Source: Archangiaceae bacterium
GTDB taxonomy: Bacteria; Myxococcota; Myxococcia; Myxococcales; Myxococcaceae
Reading direction: 5' to 3'
Assembly (NCBI GenBank): GCA_016879935.1
Contig: JAACJQ010000184.1
Coordinates: 1-64,000, forward strand
Length of the DNA stretch: 64,000 nucleotides
Of the stretch, positions 3,821 through 41,573 are shown one piece after another (position 1 is the first letter of the stretch; every line of letters starts with the position of its first letter). A program made the translations under genes and the position numbers. The notes below the pieces were generated by a model. It was given only the letters and a program-made list of their open reading frames with translations, was not told where the DNA came from and searched no databases.

Positions 3821-4040
3821 CGAGCCTCGCCCGCGAGCGCGACGCGATCTCGACCGTCGAGGGAGTTCGTCGCCTGCGCGCACGATGCGCCAGGTGTCGT
3901 TCGGCCCTCGGCGCGTCATCACTTCGCGTCGTCGAGTGTGCTGTTCGAAGGTTCGCGTCGCGGTGTTCGAGGTCTCCGGTGGCGAGGCTCGGTCGAACGA
4001 CTGGCAGAAGCACGAAGCGAGGTGGAGTAGTCAGACGTGC

Positions 4041-5516
4041 ATGCGCCCGCTCCTCACGACCATCCTCCTCGCTGCGCTCTCGGTCAGCGCCGCCCCCGGC
4101 CTCGAGTCCCGCGTCTCCGAACTCAAGCTGTCGAATGGCATGGTGTTCCTGCTCGTCGAGCGTCACGAGGCTCCGGTCTTCACGGGGTTCGTGCGCCTTC
4201 GGGTTGGCGGCATCGACGAAGAGCAGGGCTTCACGGGGCTGGCGCACCTCTTCGAGCACATGGCCTTCAAGGGAACGCCCCGGCTCGGAACGAAGAACTG
4301 GCCCGAGGAGCAGGCGCTGTTGCTCGAGATCGAACGAGTCGGTGATTCGCTCGCGAGGCTCGAGCGGGCGGGGACTGCTGCCTCTGATCAGGGCGTCGCG
4401 CTGAAGACCGAGCTCAAGGCGCTCTCCGCGAGACACAAGGCACTCACCGACGAGAACGCGCTGGCCCAGCTGTACCAGGTGAACGGCGGCGTCGGGCTCA
4501 ACGCCACCACCGACAAGGATCTCACCAGCTACTTCGTGAGTCTTCCGAAGAACCGGCTCGAGCTCTGGGCCACCGTCGAGGCGCAGCGGCTCGCGGCACC
4601 GGTGCTCCGCGACTTCTACACGGAGCGAGACGTCGTTCAGGAAGAGCGCCTGCGCTCCATCGAGACCAACCCGGGAGGCGTTCTTTTCGAAGAGCTCAAC
4701 CAGCTCGCGTTCGGGTCGAACCCGTACCGCTGGTCCACCGTGGGCTACCAGAAGGACCTCGCGGCGATGACGCTTGGAAAGGCGCTCGATTTTCATCGCC
4801 GGTTCTACGCGCCGGCCAACGCGGTCGGTTGCCTCGTCGGAGACTTCGACACCGCGCAGCTCGAGCCGCTCCTCGAGCGCACCTTCGGCGCCGTGCCCGC
4901 GCGACCGAGACCCGCCGAGCCGGTCTTCACCGATCCGCCGCTTCGCGCCCAGCGCCGCGCGCACGTCACCTTCGACGCAAGCCCTCGCCTCGCGATCGCA
5001 GTTCGTCGCCCACCGCCGCCCTCGAAAGACGACTTCGTGTTCGACGTGCTCGAGGTGCTCCTGAGCGAAGGAAGAACTGGCCGGCTGCAACAGCGGCTCG
5101 TGTTCAAGGAGCGGCTGGCCCAGGGCGTGGGTGTCTTCTCGGCTCCGGGTGTACGCGCCGAGAACCTCTTCATCGTCTCGGTCGTCCCCATGAGCGGTGT
5201 GAAGAGCGAAGACGTCGAGCGCGCCGTCTGGGAAGAGCTCGAGAAGCTGAAGACCACTCCGCCGACGGCCGAAGAGCTCGAGAAGGTACGCAACCGCCTC
5301 ACTGCAGACTTCGCGCGCTCCATCGACTCGAACGCCGGCCTCGCGAGCGCGCTGAGCCGATACCAGACGCTCTTCGACGACTGGAGGTACGCGGTGCGGT
5401 TGCCCGACGAGATTGCCGCCATCACGCCCGCCGACGTGCAGCGCGTGGCGAGCCAGTACTTCGACCAGAAGAAGAGCGTCGTGGTCACGCTCGGCAGAGA
5501 GGGAGGTGCCCGATGA
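4041..5516 (+). CDS. Secreted M16 family zinc peptidase (catalytic partner)
   Basis: 491 residues. ATG 4041 opens directly on a signal peptide ending near SVSAA; the frame continues upstream to 3885, but that extension puts about 50 unrelated residues before the signal peptide, so I reject it. The inverted zinc motif HLFEH is at residues 69-73, with the third ligand expected in the helix around LWATVEAQRL. Both an M16 peptidase domain and the second M16 domain (ending near the C-terminus) are present. M16 enzymes are clam-shaped peptidases; bacterial ones of this length usually work as heterodimers with an inactive partner. The stop codon overlaps the ATG of the next gene, itself an M16 protein lacking the motif, which supports such a pair. 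Confidence 0.93.
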   Translation: MRPLLTTILLAALSVSAAPGLESRVSELKLSNGMVFLLVERHEAPVFTGFVRLRVGGIDEEQGFTGLAHLFEHMAFKGTPRLGTKNWPEEQALLLEIERVGDSLARLERAGTAASDQGVALKTELKALSARHKALTDENALAQLYQVNGGVGLNATTDKDLTSYFVSLPKNRLELWATVEAQRLAAPVLRDFYTERDVVQEERLRSIETNPGGVLFEELNQLAFGSNPYRWSTVGYQKDLAAMTLGKALDFHRRFYAPANAVGCLVGDFDTAQLEPLLERTFGAVPARPRPAEPVFTDPPLRAQRRAHVTFDASPRLAIAVRRPPPPSKDDFVFDVLEVLLSEGRTGRLQQRLVFKERLAQGVGVFSAPGVRAENLFIVSVVPMSGVKSEDVERAVWEELEKLKTTPPTAEELEKVRNRLTADFARSIDSNAGLASALSRYQTLFDDWRYAVRLPDEIAAITPADVQRVASQYFDQKKSVVVTLGREGGAR

Positions 5517-6997
5517 AGCGCCTGCTGCCGCTTCTGATGGCGATGGGCTGCGCCACGACGCCGGTCACCGTCGAGCCCGTGATCACGCGCCCCAACCCCG
5601 GGCTCGAAGCCGTTCCCCAGAAGCGTGTACTGGCCGAACTCCCCGCGGCCCTCGACATCGATCCCAAGGCCATCACGGTTGCTCCCCTCGAGGTGAAGGT
5701 GACGCGCCCGGAGCGCTACGAGTTGTCCAACGGCCTGGTCGTGTACCTGATGGAGGATCACACCTCGCCGCTGGTGCTGGTGCGCACGCTCGTTCCCGTC
5801 GGAGCCGTCGACGAACCCGCCGATCGACTCGGCGTCTCGGGCATCGCCGCCGAGCTCGTCACCGCAGGTGGCGCCGGTAGTCGAACGCCCGAGCAGCTCG
5901 ACGAACTCCTCGAGTTTCACGCCGCCGATCTCAATGGTGGAGCCGCCGATGAGTACTCTCAGGTCAGCCTCTCGGTGCGCAGTCAGGATCTCGCCGCGCT
6001 CTTCCCGGTGTTTGCCGACGTGCTCCAGCGGCCGCGTTTCGACGGCGCCCGCTTCGAGGTCACGAAGTCGCGAGTGCTCGAGTCGATCAAGCGTCGCAAC
6101 GACCGGCCCGACGGGCTCGCGGCGCGGGCGCTCAGCAAAGCGCTCTACGGCACCGATTCGCTGCTGGGTCGCGAGTCGTCCGAGGCGACCGTCAAGGCCA
6201 TCACGGTCGACGACGTGAAGAAGCTCCACGCGAAGTGGACGCCGAAGACGGCGCGTCTGGTGATCACCGGCGACTTCGATCGCGCGGCAGTGAAGACGCT
6301 GGTCGAACGCGCTTTCGCCGGGTGGAAGGGCGGGCCTCCGCCGTCACGCACCTTCCCGACGGCGGGTCCTCCCTCGCGCCGGGTGATTCTCGTTCCGCGG
6401 GCGGTCGCCCAGGTGAAGGTGCGCATCGGCGGAGCAGGGTGGACTCGGCGCTCCCCAGACGAATACCCGATGCGCCTCGTCAACACGGCCCTGGGCAGCT
6501 TCGGGGTCGGTCGGCTGTACCGGGAAATTCGTGACGAGCGCGGGCTCGCCTATTCCGCCTCCTCCAGCGTCGGTGGCGGCCCGACGTTTGGCCAGTTCAC
6601 GGCCAGCTTCGATACGCGCCCGCAGCAGGCGGTGCAGGCGCTCGAGGTCGCGCTCGACGTGCTCACGAAGACCGGCGCCCCCGATTCGCTCTCGAAGGCC
6701 GAGCTCGCGACCGCGACCGACATGGCGCTCAACACCTTCGCCTTCCGCTTCGACTCGGCATCCCGCATCGCGTGGGAGCGCGCCCTGAGCGAGTTCTTCG
6801 GCTACGACGACGACTACCTCGATCGGTATCGCGACCGCATCGCGCAGGTCACCAGCGCGCAGGTGAACGCTGCGACCGCGACGCTCACGAAGCCAGACGC
6901 CCTGCAGATCGTCGTCGTCGGCCCGAAGGACGTGCTGGGCGATCTCTCGCGCTTCGGGCCCGTCACCGTCATCGAAGACGTCGACGCGTTTCGCTGA
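5513..6997 (+). CDS. M16-like lipoprotein lacking the zinc motif (non-catalytic partner)
   Basis: 494 residues. An N-terminal lipoprotein signal (LLMAMGC, Cys13) predicts lipid anchoring. The M16 fold is recognisable by its N-terminal beta start (RYELSNGLVVYLMEDH), the central linker, and the conserved RGLAYSASS segment of the second domain. At residues 110-114, where catalytic partners have HxxEH, the sequence reads GIAAE, so two zinc ligands and the catalytic Glu are missing. In known M16 heterodimers the inactive subunit keeps the RxxxY-type substrate site while its partner supplies zinc. The ATGA overlap with the upstream active subunit implies coupled translation and equal amounts. Role by inference: degradation of peptides or misfolded segments in the envelope. 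Confidence 0.88.
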   Translation: MKRLLPLLMAMGCATTPVTVEPVITRPNPGLEAVPQKRVLAELPAALDIDPKAITVAPLEVKVTRPERYELSNGLVVYLMEDHTSPLVLVRTLVPVGAVDEPADRLGVSGIAAELVTAGGAGSRTPEQLDELLEFHAADLNGGAADEYSQVSLSVRSQDLAALFPVFADVLQRPRFDGARFEVTKSRVLESIKRRNDRPDGLAARALSKALYGTDSLLGRESSEATVKAITVDDVKKLHAKWTPKTARLVITGDFDRAAVKTLVERAFAGWKGGPPPSRTFPTAGPPSRRVILVPRAVAQVKVRIGGAGWTRRSPDEYPMRLVNTALGSFGVGRLYREIRDERGLAYSASSSVGGGPTFGQFTASFDTRPQQAVQALEVALDVLTKTGAPDSLSKAELATATDMALNTFAFRFDSASRIAWERALSEFFGYDDDYLDRYRDRIAQVTSAQVNAATATLTKPDALQIVVVGPKDVLGDLSRFGPVTVIEDVDAFR

Positions 6998-7094: not shown

Positions 7095-7147
7095 TCGCAA
7101 CAGCTCGCTGCAGCAGTGCAGCAGCTGCCACCTCAAACGGAGCGTGC

Positions 7148-7477
7148 ATGAGCAACAACAAGCGAAAGAACAGCCGGGTCGCCCTCGACATCTACCTGAA
7201 CAAGTACGTCGCCGGCGTTCCGTACATGGCGCGCACGTCTGACATCTCGCGCGAAGGTGTGGGGCTGTCGCACCTCATCGAGCCCCAGATGGCAGGCAAG
7301 CGGGTCGGCCTGCAGTTCCAGCTCCCGGGCTCGGAAGAAGTCATCTACGCGGAAGGTGAAGTGGTTCGTGAGTGGGCCGACCTCGATCACGAAGAAGAGG
7401 GCTCGGGCGTTCGGTTCACGTTGCTCACTGAACGGCACCGTCGCTTGATCGATCAGTTCGTGTCCCGGGCGAGCTGA
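7148..7477 (+). CDS. Single-domain PilZ protein (c-di-GMP receptor)
   Basis: 109 residues and essentially only a PilZ domain. The c-di-GMP-binding signature is complete: an N-terminal RxxxR (R-K-N-S-R, residues 6-10) and DISREG fitting the D/NxSxxG motif about 30 residues later. Single-domain PilZ proteins bind c-di-GMP and pass the signal to a partner protein. No signal peptide, so cytoplasmic. ATG 7148 is chosen because longer starts add an unrelated segment that overlaps the promoter. It has its own candidate promoter and a second one follows it, so it is probably monocistronic. Its place between an envelope peptidase operon and the gliding region makes a motility or envelope role plausible, but this is inference only. 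Confidence 0.9.
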   Translation: MSNNKRKNSRVALDIYLNKYVAGVPYMARTSDISREGVGLSHLIEPQMAGKRVGLQFQLPGSEEVIYAEGEVVREWADLDHEEEGSGVRFTLLTERHRRLIDQFVSRAS

Positions 7478-7496: not shown

Positions 7497-7526
7497 TTGA
7501 AGGTCTCTGGCTTCCGTCCGTAGAGT
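7497..7526 (+). promoter_or_regulatory. Candidate promoter of the LPP20/FlgT/PEGA/FecR operon
   Basis: TTGAAG (7497-7502), an 18-bp spacer and TAGAGT (7521-7526), 45 bp before the GTG start. The preceding GTTCCCTTGA also appears at the gltJ promoter (GTTCCCTTGACC), a short shared element. Confidence 0.45.
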
Positions 7527-7571
7527 ACGGCGAATCGTTCAGAGCCTGGTCGGACCTATCAAGGGGGCCCC

Positions 7572-8453
7572 GTGAAGCGTCTGGTGTTGGCAGTGTCGTT
7601 GGCCGTGTCGATGTACGCGGTCGCGCAAGGTGCAGCGAAAGACTCGAAAGAAGCGCAGCGCCCACCGCAGGGCATGAACTGGGAAGGCCAGGTCATTCGT
7701 GCGACCGGCGCGGGCGCTCCTGACATGAAGGCCTCGAGCCCGGCGCAGGCGCGTCTGGGCGCCGAACGTGCCGCGTTGCTCGACGCGTTTCGAAACCTGC
7801 TCTCGCAGGTGAAGGGTGTTCAGGTCGACGGCACCCGCAAGATGGACGACGTCATGCAGTCCAACGAGGTTCGCGCTCGCGTCGAGGGCCTCATCAAGGG
7901 CTACAAGGTCGTCAACAAGCGCTACTTCTCGGACAACGGCGTCGAGATCGACGTCGAGGTTCCGGTCGCGATGCTGACCGACATTCTCGACCCCGACGCG
8001 ACGCAGATGCTCGCGGTGCCAGCCTCGAAGACCGAGCCGGCGAAGACCGCCGAGAAGCCCGCTGAGAAGCCGGCCGACAAGCCCGCAGAGAAGGGCGGCG
8101 AGCCGGTGGTCGCCAAGCTCGAAGACGGCACGGGGACCGGCCTGGTCATCGACGCTCGTGGCCTCAAGCTCATGCCCGCGCTGATGCCCCGCGTGCTCGA
8201 CGAGGCGGGAAAGCCCCTCTACACGGTCGATTCCCTCTCGGCCGAGGCGCGCAAGACGACCGGTGTCGCGGCGTACGTTCAGTCGCTCGACGAGGCGCGC
8301 AAGAGCATGAAGGCCGGCGACAAGCCGATGGTGGTGAAGGCCGCCAAGGCCAACGGCACCGACGTGCTCCTGCCGCAGGACGAAGCGAAGAAGCTCGTCT
8401 CGATGAATCCCCCGTTCCTTGCCCAGGGCAAGGTCGTCATCGTCTTCAACTGA
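7572..8453 (+). CDS. LPP20/FlgP-like secreted protein
   Basis: 293 residues from GTG 7572, preceded by the strong ribosome site AAGGGGG. A signal peptide runs to about AVAQG; there is no Cys at the cleavage site, so unlike many LPP20 proteins it is not obviously a lipoprotein. An LPP20-type domain occupies about residues 35-140: it starts with a GxGxA-like strand, has a long helix (AERAALLDAFRNLLSQVKGV) and ends in VEIDVEVPVAM. A Lys/Pro/Ala linker (about 155-180) leads to a second domain with a strand-rich C-terminus. FlgP, which forms periplasmic rings or disks around flagellar motors, belongs to this family. First gene of a five-gene operon, 13 bp before a FlgT-like gene. Exact function unknown. 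Confidence 0.72.
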   Translation: MKRLVLAVSLAVSMYAVAQGAAKDSKEAQRPPQGMNWEGQVIRATGAGAPDMKASSPAQARLGAERAALLDAFRNLLSQVKGVQVDGTRKMDDVMQSNEVRARVEGLIKGYKVVNKRYFSDNGVEIDVEVPVAMLTDILDPDATQMLAVPASKTEPAKTAEKPAEKPADKPAEKGGEPVVAKLEDGTGTGLVIDARGLKLMPALMPRVLDEAGKPLYTVDSLSAEARKTTGVAAYVQSLDEARKSMKAGDKPMVVKAAKANGTDVLLPQDEAKKLVSMNPPFLAQGKVVIVFN

Positions 8454-8466
8454 GGCACGAACGTTC

Positions 8467-9621
8467 ATGAGAACTCTCGCTCTCGCCATCTCCGTCATCA
8501 GCGCCGTCTCGTTCGCTCAGGCGACCATCGTCACCAAAGAAGGCACGGGTGAAGCGGCCATCGTCAACAAGGACGAAGCCCGCGCTTTCGAAGAGGCCAA
8601 GAACCAGGCGCTGCGCTCCGCCGTCGAGCAGGCCAGCGGCGTTCGCATCGACGCTGACACCGTCGCGGTGAACAACCAGCTGGTTCGCGATCAGGTCTTC
8701 GCCAACACCTCGGGCTACGTGAAGTCGTTCGACGTCATCTCGAAGAAGGCCGAGAAGAACGTCGTGACGGTGACCGTGAAGGCCAACGTCATCACCGACA
8801 ACCTCGACAAGGACATTCAGGCCGCTCGCGATCTCATCAAGCGCCTGGGCCGCCCGAGCATCGTGATCGTCATTCAGGAGCAGACGCTGCCGCTGGGCGA
8901 CAAGGCCCTGATCAGCTCAGACGTGACGGCCACCGTGCTCACCGATGCGTTCAAAGCCGATGGCTGGGACATCAAGGATCCGCAGGCCATCAACAAGACG
9001 CTCAAGCTCGATGGCGCGGCCACGCTCGGCAACGTCGCGATGAAGGAGATCAACGATCTCACCAAGGCGAACTACGTGCTGTACGGCCGCACCGTGCTCC
9101 GTCACCAGGCGCCGGACTCGATGCTGAAAGACGCTCAGGTCTTCCACGTGTCGGGCGAGTACGACTTGACGCTCGCCGCCACCGACAGCGAGGCGCAGAT
9201 CGCGAAGGTCGCCGGCAAGCTCGTGTGGAAGGAAGGCAAGGGCCCGCCGGTGATCTCGTACGAGCGCACCGCGTTCACCCTGATCCAGGACCGCAAGCCC
9301 GAGATCGTCGAGACCGTTCGCAAGGCAGTGCTCGAGCACTTCCGGAGCGAGTCGGTCAACGGCAAGCGCATCAACATGGCAGTGTCGGGCCTCGAGAACT
9401 TCGGCGCCGCGAAGGACTTCAAGAAGTCCATCGAAGCGATCAAGGGAATCAAGGAGGCGACACAGGACACGTTCGTCAACGGCAAGGCCACGTTCAAGCT
9501 CACCTACGCGGGCAACGTCGACGATCTGGCGACCGAGGTCGAGGCCGCGACGTTCAAGAAGAAGAAGCTGAACGTGGTGTCGGCAACGGGCAACACGCTC
9601 GAGGTCGCCGTCGCGAAGTGA
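8467..9621 (+). CDS. FlgT-like periplasmic protein
   Basis: 384 residues with a clear signal peptide ending near VSFAQA. The N-terminal part (about residues 20-115) matches the FlgT N-domain pattern: a GTGEAAI start, a helix of the form AFEEAKNQALRSAVEQASG, and a later GYVKSFDVISKK strand followed by VVTVTVKANV. A middle domain (about 130-230) and a C-terminal domain ending in repeated strand-turn units follow. FlgT in Vibrio builds the H-ring around the flagellar basal body at the outer membrane. No flagellar gene is visible here, so the protein must serve another envelope structure, conceivably the gliding machinery encoded 2 kb downstream. The next gene starts within its stop codon (GTGA). 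Confidence 0.72.
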   Translation: MRTLALAISVISAVSFAQATIVTKEGTGEAAIVNKDEARAFEEAKNQALRSAVEQASGVRIDADTVAVNNQLVRDQVFANTSGYVKSFDVISKKAEKNVVTVTVKANVITDNLDKDIQAARDLIKRLGRPSIVIVIQEQTLPLGDKALISSDVTATVLTDAFKADGWDIKDPQAINKTLKLDGAATLGNVAMKEINDLTKANYVLYGRTVLRHQAPDSMLKDAQVFHVSGEYDLTLAATDSEAQIAKVAGKLVWKEGKGPPVISYERTAFTLIQDRKPEIVETVRKAVLEHFRSESVNGKRINMAVSGLENFGAAKDFKKSIEAIKGIKEATQDTFVNGKATFKLTYAGNVDDLATEVEAATFKKKKLNVVSATGNTLEVAVAK

Positions 9622-9965
9622 AGTGGAGTGCGTTGCTCCTGGCCGGCTGTGCGACGTCACAGCCGGGCTTGCCGAGCCTGCCCAGAGTCACCGAGGCGCA
9701 GCTGCGCACGCCGTATCGGGTCTCGGGGGCGGGTGAGCTCGTGCTCCACTGTGCTCCGCCTGATGCCGAGGTCGCGCTCGACGGCGTCTCGCAAGGGCTG
9801 TGCAGCGATTTCAACGGCGAGCCCCGCGCGCTGAAGGTGGGCACGGGCGCACGCCGCGTCGAAGTGAAGAAGTCCGGGTTTCACACGTGGGAAAGCTGGC
9901 TGGCGGCAGATCAGACCCGAGTGGTGATGAAGGTCACGCTGCTGCCAAACGGAGGAAGTCCATGA
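9618..9965 (+). CDS. Small PEGA-domain lipoprotein
   Basis: 115 residues from GTG 9618, which overlaps the upstream stop codon. A lipobox (LLLAGC, Cys at about residue 11) predicts a lipid-anchored envelope protein. A single PEGA-type domain covers about residues 35-110: GELVLHCAPPDAEVALDG, a short loop, then ARRVEVKKSGFHTW. PEGA domains are small beta modules found in surface and periplasmic proteins and are often next to FecR-domain proteins, as here. The gene both starts in the stop of the FlgT-like gene and ends in the ATG of the FecR gene, so all three products are probably made together. Confidence 0.8.
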   Translation: MKWSALLLAGCATSQPGLPSLPRVTEAQLRTPYRVSGAGELVLHCAPPDAEVALDGVSQGLCSDFNGEPRALKVGTGARRVEVKKSGFHTWESWLAADQTRVVMKVTLLPNGGSP

Positions 9966-10693
9966 AGCGCCTGTTCGCGGTGGCAGTGACGCTGGCCTCG
10001 ATGGCCGCGTTCGCCGAAGTGGGGAAGGTCGCGCTCGTCGAGGGCAAGGCGACCCGTACGCCGAAGGGCGGGGCTGCGGTCGAGCTCGCGAAAGACTCGG
10101 CCATCGAGCTGGGCGACACCATCGACGTGCAGAGCGGCAACCTGAAGCTGCTGCTCACCGACGAGAGCATCATCATGCTCGCGCCCGCCTCGAAGCTCGA
10201 GATCACCGAGGCCGAGTTCCAGGGCCAGGAGCGCAAGGGCTTCAAGGCGTTCCTCCAGTCGGGCAGCCTGTGGACGAAGGTGAAGAAAGCCCTCGGTGGT
10301 GGCGGGTACGAGGTGTCGACCGAGCGCGCCGTCGCCGGTGTTCGCGGCACGATCTTCCGCATCGACGCCGACAAGATGGTGACCGCCGCGAAGCCGCCCA
10401 AGGCGCGCAAGGCGTCGATCGTTCGCATCGTCGAGGGCGTCGTGAACATCAAGCCGTCGGCCGAGGTGGCGAAGGCGTCGACGGGAGCTGCACCGCCGCC
10501 TCCGAAGAAGAAGGGTGAGCGCGTTCAGGTGGCTGGCCCCAGCGAGATCAGCGCCGACGAGTGGGAAAAGAAGTTCGTCGATCTGCAGCAGAACCAGCAG
10601 ATCGCGGTGGGCGTCGACCTCTGGGACGTCGCGCAGTTCGAAGAGGCCGCCAAGCGCGATGCGTTCGCGAAGTGGATCGAGAAGAACCAGTAA
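9962..10693 (+). CDS. Secreted FecR-domain protein
   Basis: 243 residues. The signal peptide ends near AAFAE. A FecR domain covers about residues 22-165: GKVALVEGKATRTPKG at the start, then IELGDTIDVQSGNLKLLLTD and the signature STERAVAGVRGTIF, where a VRGTxF motif is typical. Lys/Pro-rich and helical segments fill the C-terminus. Unlike classical FecR there is no inner-membrane span after a cytoplasmic anti-sigma part and no sigma factor gene nearby; this is the stand-alone secreted FecR type, thought to bind other envelope components. ATG 9962 overlaps the upstream stop (ATGA). Confidence 0.85.
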   Translation: MKRLFAVAVTLASMAAFAEVGKVALVEGKATRTPKGGAAVELAKDSAIELGDTIDVQSGNLKLLLTDESIIMLAPASKLEITEAEFQGQERKGFKAFLQSGSLWTKVKKALGGGGYEVSTERAVAGVRGTIFRIDADKMVTAAKPPKARKASIVRIVEGVVNIKPSAEVAKASTGAAPPPPKKKGERVQVAGPSEISADEWEKKFVDLQQNQQIAVGVDLWDVAQFEEAAKRDAFAKWIEKNQ

Positions 10694-10715
10694 CGCGCTC
10701 GTCGTCGTTGCGGTG

Positions 10716-11495
10716 ATGCTCGGAGGTCTTTCGGCCTTCGCCCAGAACCAACGGCCCGTTCCATCGGAGAGCCCAGACGTCATCGTCGGGCGCTCGGTGC
10801 GGGTTCACGTCATCGCCAGCGAAGACCTCGAGCCCGACGTGCTTCGCGCACTGGCCCGGCCACAGGTCGTGTTGTGGCTCACCACCCGCTCGAACACCCT
10901 GCGCGAGTCGACTCTCGAGACGCTCAACCGTTTCGAGTCGAGCTTCGTTCAGCTCCGCACCCCCGTCGCACCGGTCGACGCCAAAGCCCTCAAGAAGAGC
11001 CCGCGGGCAGGGCTCTGGCTTTCCCTCGACGCCAGCTCCTCACTCGCGACGGTGCGTGGCGCTCGCCCGCTGGCGCTCGAGGTGACCGGCAGCCTCGACG
11101 AGGTGAAGCAAGGGTGGTTGCTGGCTCAGAAGCCCACGTTCCTTCGCTGGGCACCCGGCGAATCCATCGATCTGCTCGAGTGGAGCCGCTTCAAGGCGCT
11201 TCCAGGCCGCAAGGCGGTGGTGCTCGCTCCGGGCCTTTTGCTGCCCCGCGACTGCGCGACGCGTGACCCAGCCGAGCCCTCGGCCGAGCTTCACGTGGCC
11301 ACGCTCCTGGCCGTGAGCGCCGGGGTCTTTCCCTGTGGAGCCGGCACTCGCGTCGAGGTGCCCGCTGACGTCGAGCCCTGGCTGCTCAAGTCGTTGATCG
11401 TTCGGGACCCGTCGGTCGAGCTGGTGGTGAAGGTTGCCGACGATGTGCGCAAGGTGGGCCGCGCCCGGGGCCTGCTCGAGCTGCTCGGTCGTTAG
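10716..11495 (+). CDS. Secreted protein of unknown function, last gene of the FlgT/FecR operon
   Basis: About 259 residues; the start is uncertain. ATG 10716 and GTG 10713 lie 20 bp past the FecR stop, with a short hydrophobic leader ending in SAFAQ that looks like a cropped signal peptide. No good ribosome site is visible, so translation may depend on ribosomes finishing FecR. The sequence reads as alternating strands and helices (VRVHVIASEDLEP; QVVLWLTTRS; AGLWLSLDASS; ALEVTGSLDEV) with one Cys pair, CATRD and PCGAG, that could form a disulfide. A barrel-like fold is possible. I do not recognise a family. Position and coupling place it with the LPP20, FlgT-like, PEGA and FecR products. Confidence 0.7.
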   Translation: MLGGLSAFAQNQRPVPSESPDVIVGRSVRVHVIASEDLEPDVLRALARPQVVLWLTTRSNTLRESTLETLNRFESSFVQLRTPVAPVDAKALKKSPRAGLWLSLDASSSLATVRGARPLALEVTGSLDEVKQGWLLAQKPTFLRWAPGESIDLLEWSRFKALPGRKAVVLAPGLLLPRDCATRDPAEPSAELHVATLLAVSAGVFPCGAGTRVEVPADVEPWLLKSLIVRDPSVELVVKVADDVRKVGRARGLLELLGR

Positions 11496-11574: not shown

Positions 11575-11597
11575 GACGAGGCGCTTTTCGCCTCGTC
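11575..11597 (+). other. Leader hairpin upstream of gltD
   Basis: A perfect 9-bp stem, GACGAGGCG with CGCCTCGTC, and a CTTTT loop. It lies in the presumed 5' leader between the candidate promoter and gltD. No T run follows, so it is unlikely to be a terminator; it may stabilise or control the long glt transcript. Confidence 0.5.
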
Positions 11598-11649
11598 GGT
11601 AGCCGCCACGATGCTTCTGCGTACCCGCCCTTCTTTCGGGAACAGCCCC

Positions 11650-14600
11650 ATGCGTTCATTGATTCCGAGTCTCGTCCTCGTGTCGTCGTTTGCCCTGGCT
11701 CAGGCGCCAGCCGCGACGAAGAAGGAGGCCGTCGACACCGAGCTGAAGAAGAAAGAGACGTCGATCGCTCCAGACAAGTCGCTGGCCGGCGACATCACGC
11801 GCAAGAAGAAGAAGGAAGAAGACGCGCCGACCCTCTCGTACGACACGTTCAGGCTCGACGTGGAGTTGCAGGTCGCCAGCAAGCGCCGCGAGCAGATCGC
11901 CGATCTCACGAAGATCATCGACCTGTCGAACGACAAGAAAGAGAAGCCGGCGTTGCTGTTCTGCCTCGGCGAACTCTATTGGGAAGAGTCGAAGTACTTC
12001 TTCTTCGAGGCGAACCGCAAAGACGACGACAAGATCAAGGCGATGAACTCGAAGGACGAGGCGGGCATTCAGCGCGCCGAGGCCGAGAAGGCCGAGCTCA
12101 TGGCGCAGTCGAAGGAGTTCGCCGACCAGGCCGTCGAGAAGTACTACCTGATCGTTCAAGAATACAAAGAGTACGAGCGCACCGACGAAGTCCTCTACTT
12201 CCTCGGCCTCAACCTGATGGATTCTTCCGACGAGAAGAATCAGAAGAAGGCGCTCGCTTCGTACAAACGCCTCATCGAGAAATACCAGAAGTCGAAGTAC
12301 CTGCCTGACGCCTACCTTGCCGTCGCCGAGTTCTATTTCAACGGCTCGAAGGGCAAGCGCGACCAGCTCGAGAAGGCACTCGAGAATTACAAGAATGCCG
12401 CGAAGTACCCCGACAACCAGGTGTACGGCTATGCGCTGTACAAACAGGGGTGGTGTCACTTCAACATGGCCGACTACGAGAAGGCCATGGACCAGTTCAA
12501 GACGGTGGTCCTCTACGCGAAGATGCAGGGCGCCGAAGAGGTCGAAGGCAAGGGCAAGTCACGCCGCCAGGGCCTCGTGAAGGAAGCGCGTGGTGACTAC
12601 GTGCGCGCCTTCTCTCGTGGTGGTGGTGCACCGAGCGACGCCAAGGAGCGGTTCAGCAAGCTCGCTGACAAGGCTGAGGACCTGCGGCTGATGATGAAGC
12701 AGCTCGCGAACCTCTATTACGAAGATGGCAAGGATCGCGAAGCGGCGGTCACCTTCGATGCGCTCATCAAGGAGCGCCCGACGGCTCCAGACGCTCCCGG
12801 CTTCCAGGGAAAGATCGTCGACTGCGTCATGCGCGCCGGCAACAAGCGCCAGACCGTCACGCAGGTGCGCCGCCTGGTGAAGATCATGGACGACGTCCTC
12901 AAGGGCAACTCCAAGATGGACGACAAGGACAAGAAGGCGCTCGACGAAGCCCGCGAGCTGTCCGAGCGCACCATCTCGAACCTCGCGGTGAACTGGCACA
13001 ACGAGGCGAAGAAGACGCGCGACGACGAGACCTTCGGCTTCGCGAACGAGGTGTACGCCGACTACCTCACGCTCTTCCCCGAGAGCCCCAAGGCCTACGA
13101 CCTGCGCTTCTTCTGGGCAGAATTGCTCAACGACAACCTGAACAAATACAAGCGCGCCGCAGAAGAATACACGCGCGTGATGATGACCGACGTCGGCCGC
13201 GTCGAGAAGAAGGGCGAAGACGGCGCTCCGGGTAAACCCGGTAAGTGGATGAACAACGCCGCGTACAACTCGATCCTCGCGTGGGACTCGGTGGTGAAGG
13301 AAGAGGCGACCGCCGACGCGGGCAAGGCTCCGTCAGGTGGTGGTGACCCCTCGAAGAAGGCTGCCATTCCGCTCACGAAGCAGGCGCTGCTCGAGGCGTG
13401 CGAGCGGTACCTCAAGTACGTGGAGAAGGGCGATAAGAAGGTCGAGATCGCCTACAAGGCCGCGAAGATCTACTACGACTACAACTACCTCGACGAAGCC
13501 GTCAGCCGCTTCGCGGACATCGCGCTCAAGTACCCTGATTACAAGTTCGAGAACGGCGACCGCGCGGGCGAAATCGCGGCCAACCTCGTGCTCGACTCGT
13601 ACAACATTCTCCAGGACTGGGCGAAGGTGAACGAGTGGTCGAAGAAGTTCTACGCCGAAGAGAAGCTCGCGACCGGCAAGTTCCGTGAAGATCTCGCGAA
13701 GCTGATCGAGCAGTCGTCGTTCAAGCTCATCAACCAGCTCGAAGCCAAGAATGAGTATGGCAAGGCTGCCGATGCCTACATGACCTTCGTGCAGGACTGG
13801 CCGAAGAGCGATCTCGCCGACAAAGCGCTGTACAACGCGTCGATCGACTTCTTCAACGCGAAGATGCTCGATCGCGCCATCGAGGTGCGAAAGCAGCTCA
13901 TTCAGAAGTACCCGAAGTCGCAGTACGTGCCGAAGACCCTCTATGCGCTCGCCGAAGGCTACGAGGCGATCGCCGACTTCGACGACGCCGCCGATCACTA
14001 CGAGCGCTACACGGCCAACTACGAGAAGAGCAAAGGCCCTGCAGGCAAGAAGGCCGCACCGAAGGGGAAGAAGGGTGATGCTCCGCCGCAGCCCGAGCAG
14101 GTCTGGGAGGAGCAGAAGGCACAGGACGCGCTGTACAACGCTGGCGTCTTCCGCGACGGCCTTGGCCAGTACAAGCAGGCGCTGAAGAACCGCGAGAAAT
14201 ACCTGGAGCTGTGGCCCAAGTCGAAGGACGCCGAGGCCGTCACCAAGTCGATCATCGACCTGCACGAGAAGATGGCGCTCTGGACGAAGGCCCAGAAGCT
14301 CTACGAAGAGTACGAGAAGGACCAGATCAAGGACCCGAGCAAGCTGCTCTGGGCCGAGGGCCGCATCGCGTCGATCTTCGAAGAGAAGCTGAAGAACAAC
14401 ACCGGCGCGCGGAAGATCTTCATCCGCATCCTCGACTACCACGAGAAGCTCAACAAGAAGCAGAAGGAGGCCCTCGACATTCAGGCCCTCGACGCCGTCG
14501 CGCGCGCCTCGTTCGTGATGAACGAAGACGACTACAAGCGGTACTCGAACCTGAAGCTCCGCTGGTCGGCCTTGCAGAATATTGGCGAACTCAAGGGCTC

Positions 14601-15270
14601 CATCGCGACGAAGGCCAAGGCGCTGGAAGAGATTCAGAAGACGTACACGAAGACGGTGCAGTTCAAGTCTGCCGACCCTGCCATCTGCGCCCTCGCGCGA
14701 ATCGGCATGGCGTACGACCAGTTCGCCGAAGCGCTCGCGAACCCGCCCGTGCCGAAGGGCATTCCCGACGAGTTGCTCATCGAAGTGAAGGCGCAGTTCG
14801 AGCAGCAGGCGGCTCCGGTGCGCGAGAAGGCGGCCGAGGCGTTCGCGGCCACGGTGACCAAAAGCCAGGAACTCGACGTCTTCAATCCGTGCTCGTCGAA
14901 GGCGCTCGACATGCTGCGCAGCAAGTACAAGCCCGAGCAGTTCCCGAAGATGGGCGAAGAGACGTTCGAGCTGAAGCTCGACGAGGGCTTCAACGCGGCG
15001 TCGATGGGCCAGGGGCTCTTGACCACCATTCAGCCCGTGCCCGTCATCTCGCCCGAGAAGGCTGCCGAGCTGAAGAGCAACACGTCGGGCGTGCAGGGCA
15101 AGAACGTCGCGGCGGTGCGCAACGAAGACCCTGACACGCTCCCGCCGCCGAAGAAGGAGGAGCCGAAGCCAGAGCCCAAGGCCGAGAAGCCCAAGCCGGG
15201 TCCGACGAAGACGGCTCCCGCGGCGACGAAGACCAACACCAACAATGACGAGCCGGAGGATTCGCTGTGA
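11650..15270 (+). CDS. gltD: GltD/AgmU, periplasmic TPR protein of the gliding machinery
   Basis: 1206 residues from ATG 11650, which opens on a signal peptide ending near SSFALAQA; the frame extends 13 codons further up but that spoils the signal. Repeated TPR-like helix pairs fill the chain, for example KPALLFCLGELYWEESKY, LYNASIDFFNAKMLDRAIEV and VPKTLYALAEGYEAIADFDD. Charged Lys/Glu runs and a Pro/Lys/Glu tail occupy the ends. Length, repeat type and gene order match GltD (AgmU) of Myxococcus xanthus, a periplasmic scaffold that links the inner-membrane motor to outer-membrane Glt proteins during gliding. The stop codon overlaps the GTG of gltE. Identification rests on synteny plus architecture. 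Confidence 0.88.
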   Translation: MRSLIPSLVLVSSFALAQAPAATKKEAVDTELKKKETSIAPDKSLAGDITRKKKKEEDAPTLSYDTFRLDVELQVASKRREQIADLTKIIDLSNDKKEKPALLFCLGELYWEESKYFFFEANRKDDDKIKAMNSKDEAGIQRAEAEKAELMAQSKEFADQAVEKYYLIVQEYKEYERTDEVLYFLGLNLMDSSDEKNQKKALASYKRLIEKYQKSKYLPDAYLAVAEFYFNGSKGKRDQLEKALENYKNAAKYPDNQVYGYALYKQGWCHFNMADYEKAMDQFKTVVLYAKMQGAEEVEGKGKSRRQGLVKEARGDYVRAFSRGGGAPSDAKERFSKLADKAEDLRLMMKQLANLYYEDGKDREAAVTFDALIKERPTAPDAPGFQGKIVDCVMRAGNKRQTVTQVRRLVKIMDDVLKGNSKMDDKDKKALDEARELSERTISNLAVNWHNEAKKTRDDETFGFANEVYADYLTLFPESPKAYDLRFFWAELLNDNLNKYKRAAEEYTRVMMTDVGRVEKKGEDGAPGKPGKWMNNAAYNSILAWDSVVKEEATADAGKAPSGGGDPSKKAAIPLTKQALLEACERYLKYVEKGDKKVEIAYKAAKIYYDYNYLDEAVSRFADIALKYPDYKFENGDRAGEIAANLVLDSYNILQDWAKVNEWSKKFYAEEKLATGKFREDLAKLIEQSSFKLINQLEAKNEYGKAADAYMTFVQDWPKSDLADKALYNASIDFFNAKMLDRAIEVRKQLIQKYPKSQYVPKTLYALAEGYEAIADFDDAADHYERYTANYEKSKGPAGKKAAPKGKKGDAPPQPEQVWEEQKAQDALYNAGVFRDGLGQYKQALKNREKYLELWPKSKDAEAVTKSIIDLHEKMALWTKAQKLYEEYEKDQIKDPSKLLWAEGRIASIFEEKLKNNTGARKIFIRILDYHEKLNKKQKEALDIQALDAVARASFVMNEDDYKRYSNLKLRWSALQNIGELKGSIATKAKALEEIQKTYTKTVQFKSADPAICALARIGMAYDQFAEALANPPVPKGIPDELLIEVKAQFEQQAAPVREKAAEAFAATVTKSQELDVFNPCSSKALDMLRSKYKPEQFPKMGEETFELKLDEGFNAASMGQGLLTTIQPVPVISPEKAAELKSNTSGVQGKNVAAVRNEDPDTLPPPKKEEPKPEPKAEKPKPGPTKTAPAATKTNTNNDEPEDSL

Positions 15271-40265: not shown

Positions 40266-40355
40266 GCGCGCGCGAGAATTCTCCAGCAATCGTGAATGGC
40301 TGGCGGCGTTCCGGCCGATCGGGCCTCGGGCATGGACCGTGCTCAAGGTCGACGC

Positions 40356-41573
40356 ATGCGCGCGCTGGCACTGGTCGTTCTTTCGTGGTCGCTCACTGCT
40401 TCGGCATTCGAGCTTCGAACCGATTCGCAGGGCGACGTCGTGAAGTGGCAGAAGTCGCTCGTCTTCGTCATCGACCCGGCGCTGTCGCAGAAGCTGGGCG
40501 ACGTGGCGGCGGCCTCGGCGGTGCGCGCCGCCGTGGCCGAGCTCGATGACGCCACGCCCGAGCTGACCGTCTCAGTGAAGGACGGCGAGGTGCACGGTCC
40601 CGGCTACGACCTCGACGCGCAGGCGCAGAACCAGAACGAGATCATCGCGCTCACCGACTGGCCGTACACCGATGGGGCGCTGGCCTCGACCGTCGTCACC
40701 GTGAACGCGCGCACGAACGAGATCATCGACACCGACATCGTCTTCAACTGCGAGCAGCACACCTTCAAGGTGCTCACCTCGCCGACGCCCAGCACGATGG
40801 AGGTCGACGACGTGCAGAACACCATCACGCACGAGATCGGCCACGCGCTGGGCCTCATGCACAACCCGATGGACGAAGACGTGGTGATGTTCCCCCGCGC
40901 GGCGGCCGGAGAGGTCACCAAGCGCGTGCTCCGCAACGACGATCGGCGCGGGCTCGAGGCCCTCTACTCGACGGCCCCGGTGACGCCTGAACTTCCGCAG
41001 CAGCAGGTCGTGGGGTGCTCTTCGTCGGGCGGTGGCGTCGCCTGGGCGTTGGGGCTCGCGGTCGTCGCCGTGCTCGCCATGGGGCGGCGGCCGAAGCTGG
41101 TTCGCGTGATCGCGCGGCGCTCGCACCGCCGTGGGCTCGCCGCGCTGCTGATCGCCGGAGCGTCGTCGATCGCCTTCACCGCCGAGGCGCAGCCGCAGCT
41201 CCAGACGCCCGTCGGGGTGGTCGTGGTGAAGACCAAGATCTGTCACCGCACGGCCGAGCTGCCGGGCCTCATCGTCACCTCGATGGACACCGACCTCGAA
41301 GCCTGCGCGACCGCGACCTGCGACCGCGTCATGCGCGTGACGGTGCCTGGCGGAAAACTCGGCGACCTCGAGCAGTCGGTCGAGCACCACCCCGTGCCCG
41401 CGCTGGGCGAGCGCCTTGGCCTCGCGAAGAAGAACGGCCGCATCGTCGTGTACCGACTCGTCGTTCCCGAAGAAGCGTCACGTTTCAATGCCCTGTTGCT
41501 GAGGTCGGCCGCGCCCCAGCCGGCGCCTTCGGAACCCGCGCCGCTCGTGCAACCCGCTGTTTCCGTGAAGTGA
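40356..41573 (+). CDS. Matrixin-type metallopeptidase with an internal MYXO-CTERM tail and a C-terminal extension
   Basis: 405 residues from ATG 40356, directly before a signal peptide (LVVLSWSLTASA). The peptidase domain has HEIGHALGLMH (H159, E160, H163, H169), the metzincin HExxHxxGxxH zinc motif, with NPMD following. At Cys221 a MYXO-CTERM-like signal begins: GCSSSGG, a membrane span (about 228-243) and a basic RRPK. Such signals normally end a protein, but here the frame runs on for about 155 residues that themselves begin like a signal peptide (basic RRSHRRG, hydrophobic stretch, FTAEAQ). This could be a fusion of two genes or a lost stop codon; a GTG at 41106 could start the second part on its own. 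An alternative first start is ATG 40332. Confidence 0.82.
   Translation: MRALALVVLSWSLTASAFELRTDSQGDVVKWQKSLVFVIDPALSQKLGDVAAASAVRAAVAELDDATPELTVSVKDGEVHGPGYDLDAQAQNQNEIIALTDWPYTDGALASTVVTVNARTNEIIDTDIVFNCEQHTFKVLTSPTPSTMEVDDVQNTITHEIGHALGLMHNPMDEDVVMFPRAAAGEVTKRVLRNDDRRGLEALYSTAPVTPELPQQQVVGCSSSGGGVAWALGLAVVAVLAMGRRPKLVRVIARRSHRRGLAALLIAGASSIAFTAEAQPQLQTPVGVVVVKTKICHRTAELPGLIVTSMDTDLEACATATCDRVMRVTVPGGKLGDLEQSVEHHPVPALGERLGLAKKNGRIVVYRLVVPEEASRFNALLLRSAAPQPAPSEPAPLVQPAVSVK

Follow-up and report, generated by a model that had tools for sequence, protein, structure and literature searches.

A putative envelope scaffold module, related to flagellar ring proteins and relocated once beside the gliding gene gltD in a myxobacterial clade

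Gene organization and domain content of the locus

The window analyzed here, a stretch of 64,000 nucleotides from an Archangiaceae bacterium (contig JAACJQ010000184.1), carries on its forward strand a cluster of genes coding for a PilZ protein and a series of exported proteins, designated A to E, just upstream of the gliding gene gltD. The PilZ gene (7142-7477, 111 amino acids; Pfam PilZ, E = 1.2e-12), which has the RxxxR and DxSxxG motifs for cyclic di-GMP (c-di-GMP), is followed by gene A (7572-8453, GTG start), coding for an exported LPP20/SHS2 protein without lipobox and with a second, C-terminal domain, as in the D1-D2 region of Treponema pallidum Tp0624. Gene B (8467-9621, ATG start) codes for an exported FlgT-like protein composed of a FlgT_N domain, a TolB/CsgG/PelC-like middle domain and a C-terminal alpha/beta domain, gene C (9618-9965) for a small PEGA-like lipoprotein with its lipobox cysteine at Cys11, gene D (9962-10693) for an exported protein with a Pfam FecR domain, and gene E (10713-11495) for an exported protein with no known fold match. 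As read from the sequence, A and B are separated by a 13-bp gap, B and C overlap by GTGA (9618-9621), and C and D by ATGA (9962-9965). The same tight packing is found in relatives, where B and C overlap or abut (gap of zero or less) in 18 of 23 cases and C and D in 14 of 23, and the A-B(-C)-D order recurs in dozens of genomes, indicating that it is not due to chance. The first-pass annotation of this DNA had described five translationally coupled genes. The gene order, the four domain types and the coupling from A to D were confirmed by sequence, Pfam and family-level matches, but not the coupling of D to E, as the start of E is unclear: the first in-frame GTG after D is at 10713 (the putative start used here), another lies at 10515 within D, and relatives seemingly use a TTG that in the window is TCG. 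That annotation had also missed the PilZ gene, which is conserved with the operon.

The hidden Markov model search proposed for the products placed B (FlgT_N, E = 1.1e-8) and D (FecR, E = 6.5e-11) over the curated Pfam cut-offs, while A (LPP20, E = 5.5e-5, 24.0 bits against a cut-off of 25.9) and C (PEGA, E = 0.011) fell just under theirs. At the level of the families, LPP20 was matched in 23 of 26 homologues of A, FlgT_N in all 32 homologues of B, and PEGA in 21 of 24 homologues of C. A to D each have a predicted signal peptide or lipobox. The lipobox cysteine of C is invariant in 24 homologues, and a lipobox is as a rule absent from A, B and D (two of 27 A homologues have a lipobox-like sequence). 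The PilZ gene precedes A at nearly all Myxococcaceae loci, and both of its motifs are intact in 20 of 21 relatives, being masked by N in the remaining one. Pfam FlgT_C did not match the B protein of the window, and neither did the CsgG model, which gave weak matches in three of the 32 B homologues (best E = 0.012). D shares its domain with the FecR sigma regulators but differs from them in that no cytoplasmic anti-sigma domain was found in it; it is a signal-peptide protein with FecR as the sole Pfam domain. NCBIfam matches of the Leptospira proteins LipL45/LipL46 to D and B were weak and far under the model cut-offs. As for E, it is a real gene to judge by its 15 homologues, conserved in Myxococcaceae after either D or an AI-2E-type transporter, although neither Pfam nor a PDB profile search matched it.

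Predicted structures of A and B

The alignments behind the AlphaFold models of A and B were shallow (26 and 32 rows, respectively). The model of A (AlphaFold2; predicted local distance difference test [pLDDT] of 80) was most similar to Tp0624 (PDB 5JIR), with a Foldseek E of 5e-13 and a Z score of 21.1 (3.1 Å over 220 residues, 20% identity). The alignment spans both domains of A, that is, its whole mature length, and only the third, OmpA-like domain of Tp0624 has no counterpart. The role of Tp0624 has not been established (PMC5104382). Helicobacter pylori Lpp20 came next (Z of 9.3), followed by weaker similarity to FlgP (9hmf) and FlgT; in profile searches, A matched both Tp0624 (E = 2e-8) and the solved FlgP chains (E from 8e-8 to 1e-6). 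The model of B had a moderate pLDDT (73.7), and its best Foldseek matches were two FlgT structures, 3w1e (E = 2.9e-9) and 8z5n (FlgT chain from the LPHT ring). Superposition on 3w1e gave a Z of 11.3 over 215 residues with a root mean square deviation of 15.7 Å, a large value due to a different relative orientation of the domains. The middle domain of B resembles TolB, PelC and CsgG (Z of about 11) and also GNA1162; the B protein of the window differs from this group in having neither a match to the CsgG model nor a lipobox.

These domain and predicted-fold matches uphold the earlier view that A and B are kin to the flagellar ring proteins FlgP and FlgT. B shares with Vibrio FlgT (3W1E, 8Z5N) the FlgT_N domain and the fold of the N-terminal and middle parts, but its C-terminal part is unmatched, the structural alignment ending short of the FlgT C-terminal domain, and A shares with the FlgO/FlgP rings the FlgP-type LPP20 domain. 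The module differs from both in its PEGA and FecR partners and in a distribution and locus that are not flagellar (see below). A further parallel is found in H. pylori, where Lpp20 (HP1456) and HP1454 belong to one operon and, like A and B, combine an LPP20-fold protein with a multidomain secreted protein whose first domain is LPP20-like. In a deletion mutant of hp1456, both the number of flagella and motility were normal (PMC11756786). The H. pylori pair differs in that no PEGA, FecR or PilZ partner was noted and in that Lpp20 is a lipoprotein while A is not.

Distribution and genomic neighborhood

We searched 60 relatives for B and found it in 34 of them (35 with a profile search), while a gltD homologue is present in 58. 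PilZ-A-B-C-D is kept together and coupled throughout the family, as well as in several further families of the order, and no LPP20 or FlgT-like protein other than A and B was found in the genome of the window. Neighborhoods were mapped in named genomes by a locus scan seeded on A, which yielded at least 80 loci and covers only genomes with A; many of the genomes sampled are fragmented metagenome-assembled genomes (MAGs), and neighborhoods near contig ends were excluded from the counts. The commonest arrangement was PilZ-A-B-C-D-[AI-2E-type transporter]-E-thrS-infC-rplT-pheS, found, in part with genes lost, in Pyxidicoccus fallax, P. caerfyrddinensis, Citreicoccus inhibens, Hyalangium versicolor and Corallococcus spp. 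The gene thrS also follows D in outgroup Myxococcota (loci L103, L104, L106, L138, L139 and L142) and in MAGs of the Desulfobacterota type (L111, L116, L119 and L126). The ancestral downstream neighbor of the module is thus thrS, and PilZ-A-B-C-D is, judging by gene content and order, an ancient module of Myxococcota and Desulfobacterota.

In the window, by contrast, the gene 3' of E is an orthologue of gltD (11611-15270, forward strand), followed by gltE (NF033758), gltG (NF033760), CglE, gltI and gltJ. Its signal-peptide start is probably at 11650, which puts it 154 bp from E, in agreement with the distance of about 150 bp given in the first-pass annotation. Conserved synteny of the operon with gltD across Myxococcota, the check that it had suggested, failed outside the clade of the window, thrS being the neighbor elsewhere. 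The gltD-adjacent loci have an identical order through E and differ solely in the genes past it, and some (L072 and L078) still contain the AI-2E-type transporter. In a 63-row tree of A the neighborhood changes once, on a branch with support of 100/99, so that the adjacency to gltD is most simply a single derived rearrangement. E was relocated along with the module.

Some of the Desulfobacterota-type loci have a presumably older form of the cluster. Nine of them (L111, L113, L115, L116, L117, L119, L123, L126 and L132) have, with minor variation, the order A-TPR protein-B-GNA1162-like-CsgG-C-D, often followed by thrS, so that genes for a GNA1162-like protein and a CsgG-family outer-membrane pore lie between B and C. 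The presence of this pore gene beside the module suggests an envelope or export role, making these clusters candidates for an undescribed export or envelope system; a literature search found no paper on GNA1162 together with CsgG. In one family (G047, G051 and G055), the LPP20 domain of A and the complete B are contained in a single open reading frame (L057:8919-10508, L058:970-2739 and L059:8818-10452), suggesting direct contact between A and B.

Joint loss of B and D

Sites without B retain PilZ and thrS, and usually A and C as well. B and D have been lost in place in G028, G012, G016, G020, G032-G035 and Myxococcus sp. RHSTA-1-4 and in Corallococcus interemptor, C. carmarthensis, C. exercitus and others. 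Counted by locus, both genes were present in 30, neither in 18, and D alone in one. B has disappeared from at least five lineages, nearly always along with D, and the joint losses number four or five independent events. No fewer than five changes of B are required on the tree of A; in the four or five independent pairs, D either follows B or shows no difference, never the opposite, although these are too few for significance. This joint loss suggests that B and D work as a pair and that A together with C is a part separable from them. The PilZ gene persists at sites that no longer have B and D. One of the genomes without the pair, G028, belongs to Myxococcus, its encapsulin being about 97% identical to EncA of the PDB, a protein of M. 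xanthus. It retains gltD and gltG side by side in an intact glt cluster.

Flagellar genes in the genome of the window and its relatives

The Myxococcaceae are usually regarded as non-flagellated. The genome of the window, however, has genes for FlgG-like, FlgI, FlgK and flagellin proteins on another contig (G000:C156:9000-28900, locus L173) and is predicted to be flagellated. The earlier remark that the window itself holds no flagellar gene is correct as it stands, but it is little informative with such a cluster elsewhere in the same genome. FlgI was found in 15 of the 36 family genomes searched. Besides G030 and G004, the latter with an unreadable neighborhood, these are the genomes in which the cluster adjoins gltD. 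Ten members of the family without flagella retain the module, whereas flagellated G030 shows an in-place loss of B, C and D. Among 144 genomes sampled across the phylum, 46 of the 68 carriers of B lack FlgI. The FlgP- and FlgT-like proteins A and B are thus present in many FlgI-less genomes, and neither their distribution nor their locus tracks the flagellum.

Possible role of the module

On balance, we consider it probable that PilZ-A-B-C-D is an ancient periplasmic/outer-membrane scaffold module, kin to flagellar rings, that is neither a part of the Glt machinery nor an obligate part of the flagellum and was relocated beside glt once. Its putative function, judging from folds and gene order, is most likely that of a general outer-envelope scaffold, in line with the "other envelope machine" that the first-pass annotation had mentioned as an alternative. 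The other idea raised there, a ring or scaffold for the gliding complex, was not supported. That A and B make up such a structure in the periplasm for the Agl-Glt complex, at least in the gltD-adjacent clade, now seems very unlikely. The module and gltD are indeed on the same strand and 154 bp apart in the window, and their adjacency is kept in every intact locus of one multigenus clade (16 labelled tree rows), but it is derived, of single origin, and replaced elsewhere by the thrS neighborhood. In several relatives the gap to gltD is 0.7 to 0.9 kb, so cotranscription with gltD is not conserved. B and D are missing from the Myxococcus genome with an intact glt cluster and from others with gltD, and genera known to glide (Myxococcus and Corallococcus) include members that have lost both in place. 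The published list of glt/agl genes of M. xanthus contains none of A to E (PMC3169522). Adjacency to gltD is thus a misleading lead and not evidence for a new gliding part.

A role as flagellar accessory ring, with A and B acting in flagellated members as the FlgP/FlgT ring proteins of the motor, appears similarly improbable. It would fit the flagellar genes of the genome of the window, where no other LPP20 or FlgT-like protein was found, the coincidence of the gltD-adjacent clade with the flagellated clade of the family, and a mild association of FlgI with B (22 of 32 genomes with FlgI against 46 of 112 without it in the phylum sample, p = 0.008; within the family, p = 0.011; both uncorrected for descent). 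However, most carriers of B in the phylum sample and ten family members do without FlgI or flagella, as described above, flagellated G030 lacks B, C and D, several flagellated members of family f5 are devoid of B, the operon is located outside the flagellar cluster, and A does not have the lipobox of FlgP. We also regard as unlikely, if less so, that the module is a CsgG-type export accessory, serving on the periplasmic side of an outer-membrane exporter for a protein fiber or a polysaccharide. The GNA1162-like and CsgG genes inside the nine Desulfobacterota-type clusters, the CsgG/PelC-like middle domain in the predicted structure of B, and a PilZ partner that fits a c-di-GMP-controlled surface material all point in this direction, yet neither CsgG, nor a secreted substrate, nor a polysaccharide gene was seen in the Myxococcota clusters, and TolB-type folds are common in the periplasm. 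Another reading, in which A-B-C-D would form a non-flagellar ring of the FlgP/FlgT kind around the CsgG-type outer-membrane pore in Desulfobacterota and represent the type of module from which the flagellar FlgP/FlgT accessory rings were recruited, is quite speculative and rather improbable.

If the module is an envelope scaffold, C would anchor the complex in the outer membrane, B would oligomerize via its SHS2 and CsgG/TolB-like domains and hold D, and A would be a periplasmic scaffold able to exist without B and D. Such an assembly would act on the outer membrane and periplasm as a brace or a gate. In Desulfobacterota it would probably surround the CsgG-type pore and the GNA1162-like lipoprotein of the same cluster. 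The assembly may be tuned by c-di-GMP via PilZ. The rearrangement in the clade of the window would have brought the module to the upstream side of gltD with no role in gliding gained. Several points weigh against the scaffold interpretation. The association of FlgI with B, in the phylum as in the family, means that the module may have a flagellar role in some members, and the adjacency to gltD in every intact locus of the clade of the window may reflect a late link to gliding there. The Myxococcota cluster has no CsgG, and a role around a pore may not carry over to it. The putative function itself is read from folds and gene order. Finally, a beta-hairpin insert between the SHS2 helix and the second strand has been tied to ring formation in the FlgP family (PMC12222027); a segment of A equal in length to this insert aligns with FlgP with one gap, but the predicted models (monomers) have short helices at the position that is a beta-hairpin in the ring-forming FlgP.

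Little is understood of the non-flagellar members of the broader envelope families that include FlgP and FlgT, and our literature search found no paper on LPP20 proteins of myxobacteria. The conserved operon, in which the two families are combined with lipoprotein, FecR and PilZ partners, occurs in culturable myxobacteria from FlgI-less groups, and the role of these folds would become testable there without a flagellum.

Other features of the window

The gap between E and gltD folds better than shuffled sequences (z of -2.5) and contains a weak promoter-like match. A perfect 9-bp hairpin (11575-11597, forward strand) was read from the sequence and folded, but no T run follows it and it was not scored as a terminator; in the scan, terminator-like sites were fewer than in shuffles. 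Upstream of the PilZ gene there are two adjoining open reading frames for M16-type peptidases (3885-6997), and the flagellar cluster of this genome (L173) likewise has an M16 gene next to it. Farther downstream, beyond the glt cluster, the window codes for a Peptidase M10 (matrixin) protein (40296-41573).

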